Assembly: GCA_016196065.1 (NCBI GenBank)
Contig: JACPYL010000027.1
Coordinates: forward strand, 62,001-126,000
Source: Acidobacteriota bacterium
GTDB taxonomy: Bacteria; Acidobacteriota; Terriglobia; Terriglobales; Acidobacteriaceae
Direction of reading: 5' to 3'
DNA length: 64,000 bases
Shown: positions 49,028 through 57,808 of the stretch, in pieces
Numbering within the stretch: position 1 is the stretch's first letter
Layout of the letters: each line of letters begins with the position of its first letter
Translations under genes and position numbers: made by a program
Notes under the pieces: generated by a model
Database searches by the model: none
Told to the model about the DNA's origin: nothing
What the model saw: the letters and a program-made list of their open reading frames with translations, nothing else

Positions 49028-49433
49028 GCTCTCTCCTGACGAAGTGTTTCCGTTCCGGCATCAGACACCGGGGAAGTCAGGCATCTGTTTTTGGAACGCG
49101 GGAGCCATTCTCTACCCTATTGGTTGAATGTCAATGGCAAACACGTGCCAGATGCCGCGTTTCGCGAATCCTTGAACCTTGGTTATAACCTCAGCCGATC
49201 GATCAAAGTCACTTTTTTCCGACGTTCTCCACAATCCTTTCCTCTCCTCCACAGGTTCTACACAGGTAAAGACCTTATTAACGTTGTCGTCACGGTCGAG
49301 TCCGTTGCACAGTAAAAGAAGCGAGAACCAAACAGGCACGCCAGCAGGGAATCAATGAGTCCGCACCTTGGCTCACACAACCGGAAAGCTTAAGATCAAG
49401 AGATCAGAGATTGAAAGAGAAGTTGCCCGTCCC
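49028..49433. other. Intergenic region between HU and the DnaC-like gene
   Basis: The 406 bases contain no gene. Three DnaA-box-like 9-mers lie in one orientation within 40 bases: TTCTCCACA (49225-49233), TCCTCCACA (49245-49253) and TTCTACACA (49256-49264). A polypyrimidine tract precedes them. Each departs from TTATNCACA by one or two bases, so the resemblance may be chance. Confidence 0.4.
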
Positions 49434-50192
49434 ATGAAATCCGTCATCGAAGTTTGTCCCAAATGCGCTGGCTCCGGATGGAAGGTCGTCCCCGACGATC
49501 CTGAACACGGCGTCACGCGCTGCGATTGCCAGCTGCGCGCTCGCGCCGATGCCATGGTCTCCGCGGCCCGCATCCCGAAACGCTATGAACATTGCGAACT
49601 CTCGAACTTCGAGTTTGAAGGATCGCAACTTCACCTCGCGCCCGCCCGCATGGCCGCATGCCGCTTCGTCGAGGAGTATCCGGTCGACAAAACAGGACTC
49701 ATGCTGGTTGGCACGATCGGCACCGGGAAAACGCATCTGGCCGTTGGGATCGCGAAAGCGTTGATCCGCGAAAAGGGCATTGCCTGCCTCTTCTACGACT
49801 ATCGCGAGTTGCTCAAGGAAATTCAGAATTCCTACAACGCGTCGGTGCAAACCACCGAACTCGCGCTGTTGCGTCCCGTGTTTGAGGCCGAAGTGCTCAT
49901 CCTGGACGAACTCGGCGCCGTTCGCCCCACCGAATGGGTTTGGGATACGGTGAGCCTGATCCTGAACACTCGCTACAACGACAATCGTACGACCATCATC
50001 ACCACCAACTTCTCTGACGATCCTGCCGCTGCTGTGGCCCGTACTCTGTCACCCGCCCGTGCCAACCGCGACGAAACTCTCGGTGACCGTATCGGAGAAC
50101 GCATGCGCTCCCGCCTGCACGAAATGTGCCGCATCGTCCGCATGGACGGCGCCGATTTCCGCCAGAAGTTGCGCAGCGCCAGCTTCGGATGA
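49434..50192 (+). CDS. DnaC/IstB-like AAA+ ATPase
   Basis: The 252-residue protein has an N-terminal zinc-finger-like module (C8, C11, C30, C32 in CPKCAGSGW and RCDC) and an AAA+ domain. Walker A is G93-x4-G98-K99-T100 (GTIGTGKT) and Walker B is LILDELG with Asp158 and Glu159. The segment IITTNFSDDP is sensor-1-like and an Arg-rich C-terminus follows (IGERMRSRLHEMC). This is the layout of DnaC/DnaI helicase loaders and IstB-like proteins. No transposase is adjacent, which favours a helicase-loader role. ATG 49434 is chosen; a TTG at 49368 would add 22 residues. Confidence 0.85.
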   Translation: MKSVIEVCPKCAGSGWKVVPDDPEHGVTRCDCQLRARADAMVSAARIPKRYEHCELSNFEFEGSQLHLAPARMAACRFVEEYPVDKTGLMLVGTIGTGKTHLAVGIAKALIREKGIACLFYDYRELLKEIQNSYNASVQTTELALLRPVFEAEVLILDELGAVRPTEWVWDTVSLILNTRYNDNRTTIITTNFSDDPAAAVARTLSPARANRDETLGDRIGERMRSRLHEMCRIVRMDGADFRQKLRSASFG

Positions 50193-50380: not shown

Positions 50381-51571
50381 GTGCTGACGGAGCGCCTCGA
50401 CTTCCATCCCGAGCATGATGCGGAACTGTTTGCGTCCGTCCCCGCATCCCCTGCCGTATTTATGCTCCACGGCGTCGAGGGCACCGAGCCGTATGTCAGC
50501 AAGACCGCCAATCTGCGCCGTCGCTTGCAGCGTTTACTCTCCGCTCCCGAAGAGCGCACCAAGCGCCTGAACCTGCGCGATCGTGTTCGCTCGATCGAAT
50601 ACAGTCCCACCGGATCGGATTTCGAATCCGGGTTCCTGCTTTATCGAGTGCTGCGCACTGCGTTCCCCAAGACCTACGAAAACCGGCTCAGGCTGCGTTT
50701 CCCCCCACTGGTCAAACTGCATCTCGAAAACGAATACCCGCGAGCCTCGATCACGACCCGCCTTGGCCGTCTGCCCGGCAAGAATGTCTATTACGGTCCA
50801 TTTTTCTCACGAGTGGCGGCAGAAAAATTTCTAAACGATGCGCTCGACTTTTTCAAGATGCGCCGCTGTGTCGACGATCTGAATCCTGATCCGAAGTTTC
50901 CCGGCTGCGTGTATTCCGAGATGAAGATGTGCCTTGCCCCCTGCTTCAAGGGCTGCACGGATGATGAGTACCGCGCCGAAGTGGTGCAGGTAGAAACTTT
51001 TCTGGATTCGCAAGGCGAATCCCTGAAGCGACAGCTCGGCATTGAGCGCGACGAGGCGTCAACCAGGCTGGAGTTCGAAGGCGCCGCTGCTTTGCATGCC
51101 CGCCTCGACAAGCTGACACCTGTGCTGCAGCAATTGCCCGAAGCGGTTCGACGCATCGACCAGATGCACGCCCTGATCGTGCAGCGTTCGTTCCAGCCTG
51201 AGAGTGTCACGTTTTTTCGAGTGGACGCAGGCGCGATCGCAGGACCGCTTGAGTTTGCGATTTCCTCTGCCGAGCACACCAAATCACAATCCATGGAAGC
51301 GCGTATTCAATCCGCACTCGCCACCTTACCGATGGCAGAACTGGACAGCGTCACCGAACGCATGGAACATCTCGCGATCCTGAAGCGCTGGTATTACCGG
51401 GGCAGCCGCGTGGGCGAGATATTCTTCGCCGACGCGAATCACGATCTGCCCATGCGCCGGATCGTCCGCGGAATCGCACGCGTGTATCGCGGTGAAGCGC
51501 CGGAAGTCCCCACTCTTGCAACGCCAGCCGTTCCCGCTCAATCTAATAGCAACAGCAAAGAGGAATCATGA
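50381..51571 (+). CDS. UvrC/Cho-like protein with degenerate GIY-YIG domain
   Basis: The 396-residue protein has the N-terminal half of UvrC. The GIY-YIG fold region (about 24-105) has AVF at 25-27 for GVY, YVS at 38-40 for YVG/YIG, and Tyr88 where the metal-binding Glu of the ILEANLI-type helix is expected. Nuclease activity is therefore doubtful. The four Cys of the UvrC iron-sulphur site are intact (C163-x12-C176-x7-C184-x3-C188). A UvrB-binding UVR-like helix pair follows (RDEASTRLEFEGAAALHARL). The RNase-H and HhH domains are absent, as in Cho. The gene overlaps a DinB-fold gene (ATGA). The role is unknown; a UvrB-binding regulator is one possibility. Confidence 0.78.
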   Translation: MLTERLDFHPEHDAELFASVPASPAVFMLHGVEGTEPYVSKTANLRRRLQRLLSAPEERTKRLNLRDRVRSIEYSPTGSDFESGFLLYRVLRTAFPKTYENRLRLRFPPLVKLHLENEYPRASITTRLGRLPGKNVYYGPFFSRVAAEKFLNDALDFFKMRRCVDDLNPDPKFPGCVYSEMKMCLAPCFKGCTDDEYRAEVVQVETFLDSQGESLKRQLGIERDEASTRLEFEGAAALHARLDKLTPVLQQLPEAVRRIDQMHALIVQRSFQPESVTFFRVDAGAIAGPLEFAISSAEHTKSQSMEARIQSALATLPMAELDSVTERMEHLAILKRWYYRGSRVGEIFFADANHDLPMRRIVRGIARVYRGEAPEVPTLATPAVPAQSNSNSKEES

Positions 51572-52226: not shown

Positions 52227-53783
52227 TCAAGCGCTCCGCTGCGCATCGATTTCGTCTCGTCCGCGGTCGCTCGCGCGCTTGCGAAACACGACGCGGACGC
52301 CATCCCGCCAGTGCTCGTCGATGCCAAACAATTCCCACTCAATCTCCGGTGACAGGTAGCGCAGGATCGTGTCCGTTGCCGGATGCACATGGAGCGCGGG
52401 AGCAACCATGAACAGCAGCGGTTTCCGGTCGGATATTTCAACGCCGGGGAAGTATCCGAACTTGCGAAATTCTCCGCGTTCCTGATGCCACGCGACGCGC
52501 GACCAGTAGTCCACGCCCTGCAAGGGCAGATGAACATCTTCATCGGCCTTCAGTTCCACCACCGCCAGCCGGTTCTCGCGAGTCAGCCCGAGGACATCGA
52601 TCATGGCGCGGTCCGCCGCCGAGAATGCGGGCACCTGGGAATAGACACAGTCCGTTCGCAGGCGCCCATCCAGCGTTTCCAGCTTGTTGAACACCAGCGA
52701 CTCCAGCCAGCGCTCCGGATGCATCCGCCACAGCGGGTGCGGCTTCGGCCCATCTTTGTGCCGGATCGACGCAGCCAGCCGCAACAGTTCAACGAACTGC
52801 GCTTCGTTGTTTTCATCAAGAACGCGTTCTTCCGCTCCGATCCCAAACGCAATTTCCTGTCTACTTTGAAACGTTCGTGGATCATGCGCCACCCGCGCCT
52901 GGGCAAACTCCAGTCCTCGCAAACGAAACGAAATCAGTGCAGAGGAGAGCACTGCCACATCGCATTGCGGAAGAATGCCGCGTATCCGGGCGATGGACTC
53001 GGCAAAACGTTCGCGCGGTGCCTGGTCGTCGGTCGCGCGTACGAGCCGGGTCGCTAGATTGCCGCTCGCAGTGACCTCTGCCTGGTTTAGCGCATCCTCG
53101 CGCTCGTCGAATTCATACAACTGCCACTTCGCGGCCGCGGGATGCAAGTGAGCCATCCGCTGCTGCGTCAAGACCGCTGTCCCCTTCGGTAGGATGATCA
53201 CCAGTCCCTCGACCACTCGCCGATCCTGTTGCGCGATCCGGCAATAGTCGAGCCAGAGCAAGCCACAGGTCAGAGCGCCATCGATCGTCGTCTGCGTCTC
53301 CTGCGCATTGACTCCCACAACCGCCAGGGCACTTTGCCCTTGCTGCAAGACTCCGCGGAGATACGCCGGACCGAAAGAACGATGCAGATCCATGTTGGTG
53401 GTGAGCCGGGCCACCTTCCAGGCAGGAAAATTCCGTTCCAGCGCACGCTGCACGACCGCAGCGTACGCTACCCGCGCTGTCTGGCGCGCCGCCGTGGAGC
53501 GCTGATCGCGGTCGCGATAGAAATCGAGCTTGGTGGGACGGCTCTGCCCAATGCGCTGTACTTGCAGCCGCAAGGTCGTTCCCTTCAACTCCGCGTCCAG
53601 CACCCGCCGCACGACGTTGCGTTCGTTCGACCACAAATGCAGCAGACATTTGTTGTGTTCGCCGGAGATGGAATATTTCGAATTCGCCAGATCGAAAGCG
53701 ACGGCCCCGTCTTCGATCACCAACGCGGCCTGCGCTCCAGCCAGAAAATCGGAAACCATTTTGCCCAGTGACTCAGGGGTCAT
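52227..53783 (-). CDS. Uncharacterised protein with C-terminal PD-(D/E)XK nuclease motifs
   Basis: The 518-residue soluble protein was not recognised as a whole. The region about 350-470 has the full motif set of RecB/Cas4-like PD-(D/E)XK nucleases: Glu361 (HPERWLESLV), Asp396 (DRAMIDVLG), E410-L-K412 (AVVELKADED) and Q422-x3-Y426 (QGVDYW). The N-terminal 340 residues are mixed alpha/beta with no known motif, and an internal segment GALTCGLLWLDYCRI was not assigned. A CACAAT lies eight bases before the ATG and no Shine-Dalgarno sequence is close. It stands alone on the minus strand between DinB and tldD. A DNA-processing or defence role is an inference from the motifs. Confidence 0.68.
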   Translation of the reverse strand: MTPESLGKMVSDFLAGAQAALVIEDGAVAFDLANSKYSISGEHNKCLLHLWSNERNVVRRVLDAELKGTTLRLQVQRIGQSRPTKLDFYRDRDQRSTAARQTARVAYAAVVQRALERNFPAWKVARLTTNMDLHRSFGPAYLRGVLQQGQSALAVVGVNAQETQTTIDGALTCGLLWLDYCRIAQQDRRVVEGLVIILPKGTAVLTQQRMAHLHPAAAKWQLYEFDEREDALNQAEVTASGNLATRLVRATDDQAPRERFAESIARIRGILPQCDVAVLSSALISFRLRGLEFAQARVAHDPRTFQSRQEIAFGIGAEERVLDENNEAQFVELLRLAASIRHKDGPKPHPLWRMHPERWLESLVFNKLETLDGRLRTDCVYSQVPAFSAADRAMIDVLGLTRENRLAVVELKADEDVHLPLQGVDYWSRVAWHQERGEFRKFGYFPGVEISDRKPLLFMVAPALHVHPATDTILRYLSPEIEWELFGIDEHWRDGVRVVFRKRASDRGRDEIDAQRSA

Positions 53784-57064: not shown

Positions 57065-57808
57065 CTACGGAAGCAAAATAGCAGCGTCAAACAATTCATT
57101 TCCGAAGGGCATATTGCTCCATTTTTCCAGAGAGGCTGCCAGTTTGCTCTTGACCTCGGGTTTTCTAAGCCATTCGACGAGCTGTCGCCATTGTTCTTTC
57201 CGGCCGGCCCAATAGCCACCATCAGGCCGCGGCGCATTCGGAACACCGTCCCACACGATCATCCGAGCCAGATTCCGATGCGCATTCTCCGATGGAGCGA
57301 TCAGCCAATGATCAAGATAGACTGACAAGTCATTTTCTGCCTGAGCAAAAGCCCCGAGCCAGCGGTACGGACCGTCCGTTAGTTCTTCCGGGGCGGTTTC
57401 TAACACGGCATTCCATACGGCGCATGTGTAGCTCGAAATCGCATTTTGTTCACATTGCGGCCACGTGCGCCAACTAGTAGAACCGCAGGACACATAGACT
57501 AACTTGACGAATACGCTCTCCGGATCGACAAAATCTCTCCGCGATTCGTCCGCCTTGGTTAGCAAATCAAGTATGCGTGGCAGAAAATGCTTGAAACCAT
57601 TTTCGTCCCCCCAAGTGTACAAAGCATCCATCGAATACCTGAACAGGTCTTCGGAACTGAGTTTGCGGAGCAACTTGGAACGAAGGCGCTGATCATCTTG
57701 CGATGAATGGCAACAGGGACAAGGCTGAGTGCCGGACTGGAGCCGGTAGCTCTCGAACACCCGGTAAAGATTCTCGATTGCAGTAGAGAGTTCCGGAGTT
57801 TGCAGCAT
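57065..57808 (-). CDS. Cys-containing soluble protein, function unknown
   Basis: The 247-residue protein is mainly helical, with no signal peptide. Near the start is a possible metal site CPCCHSSQDD (about 29-38), and later Cys occur in YVSCGSTSW and QCEQNAISSYTC. Aromatic-rich segments such as LYTWGDENGFKHFLP, YRWLGAFAQAENDL and GGYWAGRKEQWRQL give it a distinct look. It was not matched to a family. GATAAT (57817-57822, minus strand) lies eight bases before the ATG, suggesting a leaderless mRNA. It is convergent with pmbA. Confidence 0.65.
   Translation of the reverse strand: MLQTPELSTAIENLYRVFESYRLQSGTQPCPCCHSSQDDQRLRSKLLRKLSSEDLFRYSMDALYTWGDENGFKHFLPRILDLLTKADESRRDFVDPESVFVKLVYVSCGSTSWRTWPQCEQNAISSYTCAVWNAVLETAPEELTDGPYRWLGAFAQAENDLSVYLDHWLIAPSENAHRNLARMIVWDGVPNAPRPDGGYWAGRKEQWRQLVEWLRKPEVKSKLAASLEKWSNMPFGNELFDAAILLP

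Follow-up and report, generated by a model that had tools for sequence, protein, structure and literature searches.

An acidobacterial nuclease of the NucS type that appears to carry a second, inactive PD-(D/E)XK domain

The 64,000-nucleotide stretch of acidobacterial DNA analysed here, hereafter the window, encodes a 518-residue protein, P0001 (58.6 kDa), whose C-terminal part is, as its conserved motifs and predicted fold show, a nuclease of the NucS/EndoMS type, and whose N-terminal part most likely holds a second, inactive PD-(D/E)XK domain. The P0001 family appears to be a variant of the NucS-type nucleases, not a new kind, and its link to a published enzyme is probable but unproven. The gene is most likely a genome-maintenance (housekeeping) gene, which fits the DNA-maintenance role that an earlier reading of the sequence alone (hereafter the sequence-only reading) had offered as one of two possibilities.

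As that reading described, the open reading frame of 518 codons stands alone on the strand opposite its neighbours. It starts with an ATG, and its first residue is also the alignment start for many homologues. On one side, plus-strand genes for a DinB-like and a UvrC-like protein stop short of it; on the other, tldD is transcribed divergently. The gene is not part of a repair or CRISPR operon. The protein has no match in Pfam or NCBIfam, and a search of its own 5.5-Mb genome with P0001 gave one match. The features of the protein are collected in Table 1.

Table 1. Window positions of the P0001 gene, its predicted domains and the motif residues of its nuclease domain
Feature	Positions	Strand	Residues or conservation
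P0001, NucS-type nuclease with extra, apparently inactive PD-(D/E)XK domain	52227..53783	-	518 aa
Beta-rich N-terminal domain; best chain YojF, Z 7.0, within noise range	53505..53783	-	residues 1-93
Predicted second fold resembling PD-(D/E)XK, catalytic residues absent	53073..53495	-	residues 97-237
Beta-rich region with conserved GLEFAR and FGxG stretches	52809..53033	-	residues 251-325
NucS/EndoMS-type PD-(D/E)XK nuclease domain (predicted), motifs intact	52269..52763	-	residues 341-505
E357, motif I, NucS E127 equivalent	52713..52715	-	104/104
D396, NucS D160 equivalent	52596..52598	-	104/104
E410-L411-K412, NucS E174 and K176 equivalents	52548..52556	-	E and K 104/104
Q422-x3-Y426; NucS Q187 aligned, Y191 by spacing	52506..52520	-	104/104

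Conservation was assessed in 104 homologues with an open reading frame of at least 380 aa, out of 109 fetched (five shorter ones were dropped). Its members were collected for their similarity, close relatives are among them and some species may be represented twice, so that the conserved residues are not independent tests. E357, D396, E410, K412, Q422, Y426, R341 and Q383 are identical in every member, and the pattern D-x(8-20)-E-x-K occurs in the active domain of all 104. The motif set D396, E410-x-K412 and Q422-x3-Y426 proposed by the sequence-only reading is therefore kept throughout, with no homologue in the set departing from it. The 39 distant members alone, 38 of which sit in the alignment A2 with 22-36% identity to P0001, show the same full conservation of D396, E410, K412, Q422 and Y426. 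The motif-I residue had been placed at Glu361, which is kept in 102 of the 104. A profile of 48 members, compared with the sequences of solved structures, aligns in register with NucS of P. abyssi (2vld) at E 0.0021, setting E357, D396, E410, K412 and Q422 opposite NucS E127, D160, E174, K176 and Q187, and because E357 lies opposite E127 we take E357 as the motif-I glutamate. According to the accessible part of PMC7343888, the RecB-like motif of NucS consists of E127, D160, E174, K176, Q187 and Y191.

Structure prediction leads to the same family. The nuclease domain modelled alone (residues 318-507, 40 sequences) reached a pLDDT of 81.8 and has a PD-(D/E)XK fold whose best solved match is 2vld, with Z 12.9 and an rmsd of 2.0 Å over 107 residues, followed by 5gke (Z 12.8) and 5gkj (Z 11.3); the next group after NucS/EndoMS stands at Z 9.8. 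In Foldseek, the domain model matched NucS/EndoMS at E 3.7e-4 to 7.5e-4, with SduA (Shedu) close behind (E 9.1e-4; Z 8.7). In the model, D396 lies on the second core strand, E410 and K412 at the end of the third and Q422 and Y426 in the next helix, a predicted arrangement that is the canonical active-site layout. The full-length model gave a single Foldseek match at E <= 0.001, EndoMS 5gkj, with a poor superposition (rmsd 16.8), and a viral structure library gave none at that limit. By analogy with its family, the nuclease would be metal-dependent.

The assignment to a RecB/AddB/Cas4 type holds in part: the PD-(D/E)XK core and the QxxxY motif after ExK are present as in those enzymes, but the nearest nuclease is NucS/EndoMS, by both profile and fold. 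The helicase fusion or the recombination or CRISPR operon in which RecB, AddB and Cas4 occur is also absent, as P0001 stands alone and has no other domain match.

The 340 residues before the nuclease domain had been described as matching nothing. This is borne out by sequence searches but not by the predicted fold, which shows a second PD-(D/E)XK-like domain at residues 97-237. In the full-length model, which is of moderate confidence only (pLDDT 72.1, pTM 0.50), this segment matches PaqCI (Z 9.8), two XisH proteins (Z 9.3 and 8.9) and the nuclease domain of EndoMS (Z 9.1). A Z of 7-8 is the typical best score in the absence of a clear relative; residues 97-237 score above this, not far above. 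PaqCI, a restriction enzyme, and both XisH proteins carry PD-(D/E)XK folds; they match both P0001 domains at the level of the fold, with no shared architecture seen. The lower fold matches of the N-terminal part, at Z 5 to 7, mix nucleases with RNA polymerase subunits and acetyl-CoA carboxylase. Within the models, the main elements of residues 97-237 and of the active domain follow the same order, H E E E H E H E, and a weak profile alignment of the two domains falls in the same register.

At the positions of the catalytic D, E and K, the second domain has R143, G157 and N159; G157 and N159 lie inside the profile alignment and R143 was placed by a gapless extension of three residues. These replacements are themselves conserved, with R143 in 97, G or A at 157 in 99 and N159 in 69 of the 104 homologues, and the pattern [DE]-x(8-20)-[DE]xK occurs in the second domain of one homologue only. 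Taken together with the predicted fold, this conservation suggests that residues 97-237 are most likely an inactive PD-(D/E)XK domain. Sequence proof of an internal duplication was sought and set aside as marginal: the hhalign score between the two domains was reached by 1/60 and 5/60 block-permuted controls, and a further comparison gave P 0.085. A profile of residues 95-242 found nothing meaningful among solved sequences (best E 0.55), and neither of the two remaining N-terminal segments was convincingly similar to any part, with controls reaching their scores in 5/30 and 2/30 cases at best.

P0001 shares the C-terminal nuclease fold and motif residues with NucS/EndoMS (2vld from P. abyssi; 5gke and 5gkj from T. 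kodakarensis), but the remainder differs. At 518 aa, as opposed to the 226-251 residues of the solved chains, and with an added domain, it does not fit the two-domain NucS size of about 230-250 residues; its N-terminal part has no match there, and the inactive nuclease-like fold is extra. With PF01939 (cut-off 24 bits), neither P0001 nor its own genome gave a match. Among 48 members, the same model matched 4 at E <= 0.1 (best 0.03) and NCBIfam NucS matched 17 (best 2.2e-4 at that limit), and when 19 members of a distant branch of the family, f22, were searched together with P0001, NucS_C (PF01939) matched 12 of the 20 at E <= 1 (best 0.0026). These 20 sequences also gave weak matches to MmcB-like (7/20, best 0.0018) and PDDEXK_1 (4/20, best 0.012) models, and six of the 48 members matched an Rpn-nuclease model (best 2.0e-4). 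The NucS C-terminal region is also found in proteins with other added domains, as noted in the available part of PMC5290159.

The family has a likely relative that has been characterised. The accessible sections of PMC10140301 describe 'Cluster 2' NucS-like proteins from Antarctic Dry Valley soil metagenomes, 115 sequences of which some exceed 500 aa, with the last 200 residues resembling the EndoMS nuclease and an N-terminal part that is poorly alignable. One of them, DV-NucS (58.8 kDa; gene Ga0136640_100017415), cut duplexes with uracil and abasic sites as well as single-stranded DNA in vitro, an activity that required incubation for 18 h; the same sections call for active-site mutants as confirmation (PMC10140301). 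P0001 is similar in mass and in being over 500 aa with a NucS-like end and a poorly matched N-terminal part. A putative lysophospholipase gene lies directly upstream of all four Cluster 2 genes examined there (PMC10140301).

In f22, a GDSL-lipase gene lies directly upstream of the nuclease gene on the same strand in 19 of the 27 nuclease-bearing genomes of our phylum sample, with match ends -7 to +95 bases apart and PF13472 found in the two tested. GDSL lipases are often annotated as lysophospholipase, and the DV-NucS neighbour thus resembles that of the distant f22 branch, not that of P0001's branch: the window locus has no lipase neighbour and instead has TldD, DinB-like and UvrC-like genes. 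The lipase loci are L095, L109, L115-L117 and L119-L132, and the lipase gene sometimes overlaps the nuclease gene. Five of the eight f22 genomes without the lipase have a thiolase-type gene upstream; the other three have no lipase match, two of these loci ending at a contig edge within about 0.5-0.8 kb of the gene.

Against the link stand the lipase-free window locus and two features of Cluster 2: its Pfam NucS match of 3.5e-6, better than the best obtained here (0.0026), and its composition of Dry Valley sequences only, with no UniRef node (PMC10140301). The consulted sections of the paper mention no inactive nuclease domain (PMC10140301). Compared by published description, not by sequence, DV-NucS is a likely relative of the P0001 family, on circumstantial grounds. 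We recognised no paper that names this acidobacterial family; in the literature as far as it was accessible, only PMC10140301 describes a likely relative. The label of an undescribed nuclease given by the sequence-only reading may not fully apply, since a probable relative has been produced and assayed (PMC10140301, in the sections available).

A scan of one genome per species with P0001 peptides found 40 loci with relatives, all in records titled as Acidobacteriota. In a phylum sample, 117 of 396 genomes matched at E <= 0.001, or 116 after removal of one (G042) with a stray 89-residue piece; one of these 116 (G267) holds the nuclease domain only, in a frame of under 190 codons. A profile search of the same sample matched 137 genomes. 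The 21 extra genomes had best E values of 9e-10 to 8e-4 and, at the places shown, short nuclease-motif matches, so the count is again 116. At the level of the order, the gene was matched in 196 of 200 genomes; the four misses were two genomes of the same family that are 98-99% complete and two that are 73-82% complete. One match was found in 169 of the 196 and two to four in 27, and at the three places inspected (G130, G273 and G352) a single gene accounts for the pieces.

In members of genus g7, including G130 and G273, the nuclease matches fall into two pieces, which in G130 and G273 both lie within one longer open frame (643-682 aa), a pattern that suggests extra sequence inserted ahead of the nuclease domain or within its beginning. 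At G352:C1:924788-926334, the homologue is divided between two open frames close to where the nuclease domain starts, which could be a frameshift or two genes. Searches of plasmids and phages with P0001, of plasmids with two distant members and of viral contigs with the family profile gave no match.

Of the 40 loci, 35 have a TldD homologue on the strand opposite to the nuclease and 36 a DinB-like or UvrC-like gene, as counted in the flanking sequence fetched, which contig edges cut short at some loci. At loci where both genes are long enough to compare, identity between pairs of nucleases rises and falls with that between pairs of TldD (r 0.69, 36 sequences), UvrC-like (r 0.93, 29), DinB-like (r 0.62, 24) and TldE (r 0.86, 27) proteins; in each case none of 500 permutations reached as high a correlation. 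The nuclease changes faster than TldD, with a mean identity of 0.63 versus 0.87. Among the 39 distant loci, no operon partner is conserved phylum-wide. The neighbours there are lineage-specific and mostly metabolic or informational genes, including SelB-, Ffh- and TruB-like genes (by eye) and genes for thiolase, enoyl-CoA hydratase and GDSL lipase.

We regard it as an even call that P0001 is a chromosomal housekeeping DNA endonuclease of Acidobacteriota in which the inactive half serves the active one. The inactive half would act as a platform for holding DNA or for pairing with the active half, so that a single chain might resemble a dimeric repair nuclease in which one half is live and the other dead. 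EndoMS, as described in the accessible part of PMC6829318, is a homodimer that cuts both strands in a mismatch-dependent manner, and by analogy an asymmetric single chain could nick. Damaged or distorted DNA, for instance with deaminated bases or abasic sites, might then be cut on one strand, and the product might feed ordinary base or nucleotide excision repair. The fuller proposal, that an entire lineage of Acidobacteriota depends on a single-chain, asymmetric NucS-type live/dead nuclease to nick damaged DNA beside MutL-type mismatch repair, is tentative, a possibility and no favourite; such an enzyme would be a bacterial counterpart, in one polypeptide, of live/dead nuclease pairs such as MUS81-EME1 and XPF-ERCC1.

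Several other readings have to be set against this one. A nuclease that acts on RNA or single-stranded DNA intermediates, binding them through a platform formed by its N-terminal domains, would agree with the degradation of single-stranded DNA by DV-NucS (PMC10140301, in the sections available), but EndoMS, the nearest solved relative, was solved on duplex DNA (5gke), and we consider this reading doubtful. That residues 97-237 are an unrelated alpha/beta domain over-read by structure comparison, not a dead nuclease, would account for the marginal sequence similarity of the two domains and the poor profile result for this part; against it, the four best solved chains, at Z 8.9 to 9.8, are PaqCI, the XisH pair and the nuclease domain of EndoMS, and the weak alignment falls in the register of the shared element order, which makes it unlikely. 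If P0001 were instead a NucS orthologue performing mismatch repair in place of MutS/MutL, its closest fold and profile and the NCBIfam NucS matches of 17 members would be expected, but not the missing Pfam or NCBIfam NucS match of P0001 itself or its different and much longer N-terminal part, and a search for MutL_C (of MutS and MutL, only the latter was covered) gave such a gene in its genome; such an orthologue is quite unlikely.

The sequence-only reading had also suggested a single-gene defence factor. The PADLOC candidate PDC-S11, to which such an anti-phage nuclease would be related, shares the nuclease motif region: PDC-S11 models match P0001 (best E 1.3e-4) and 46 of the 48 A2 members (best 6.4e-12), and one of the folds that the nuclease domain resembles is that of SduA, the defence nuclease of Shedu. 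The P0001 match, however, is limited to the nuclease motifs and spans only part of the domain, residues 344-430 at most, corresponding to positions 12-94 of a 358-position model, and is not full-length (the PDC-S11 models have 347-379 positions). Among the ten neighbouring window genes, the only PADLOC match is that of the DnaC-like ATPase, to ATPase models. Defence genes are expected to be patchy and mobile, whereas P0001 is a core gene; its presence in 196 of 200 order genomes, the tracking of its neighbours and the fact that no relative was found in plasmids, phages or viral contigs argue against a defence role, which we consider very unlikely. As the PADLOC match illustrates, a housekeeping gene may be taken for a defence candidate on the strength of a nuclease motif that both have.

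Almost all sampled genomes of a major order of soil bacteria keep this unannotated gene, which therefore likely has a basic function. If the arrangement of a live and a dead half is true, the family offers a system for studying how a family of double-strand-breaking nucleases becomes a single-strand cutter, and an orphan metagenomic damage-cutting enzyme would have a probable home in the core genome of Acidobacteriota. Replacement of mismatch repair or of AddAB by P0001 was considered and set aside. Searches of the genome (of MutS and MutL, only for the latter) gave a MutL_C gene and, with PDDEXK_1, one gene whose open frame of 1017 codons is AddB-like in length, both elsewhere than P0001; with these genes present and no PF01939 match, P0001 is probably no stand-in for those systems.

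Some further observations concern the surroundings of the gene and of the family. The UvrC-like protein, the neighbour that the nuclease tracks most closely (r 0.93), has 396 aa (window 50381-51571, plus strand) and no Pfam match at E <= 0.001; in NCBIfam it matches, always below the cut-off, UvrC over the N-terminal half and PRK07883 proteins over their UvrC-like part. Upstream of it is a gene for a DnaC/DnaI/IstB-like ATPase (49368-50192, plus strand). For a 247-aa protein (57065-57808, minus strand), neither Pfam nor NCBIfam gave a match at the limits applied. In 39 of the 396 phylum genomes, NucS_C matches over the cut-off occur at places other than the P0001-family genes, in open frames of 131-515 codons.
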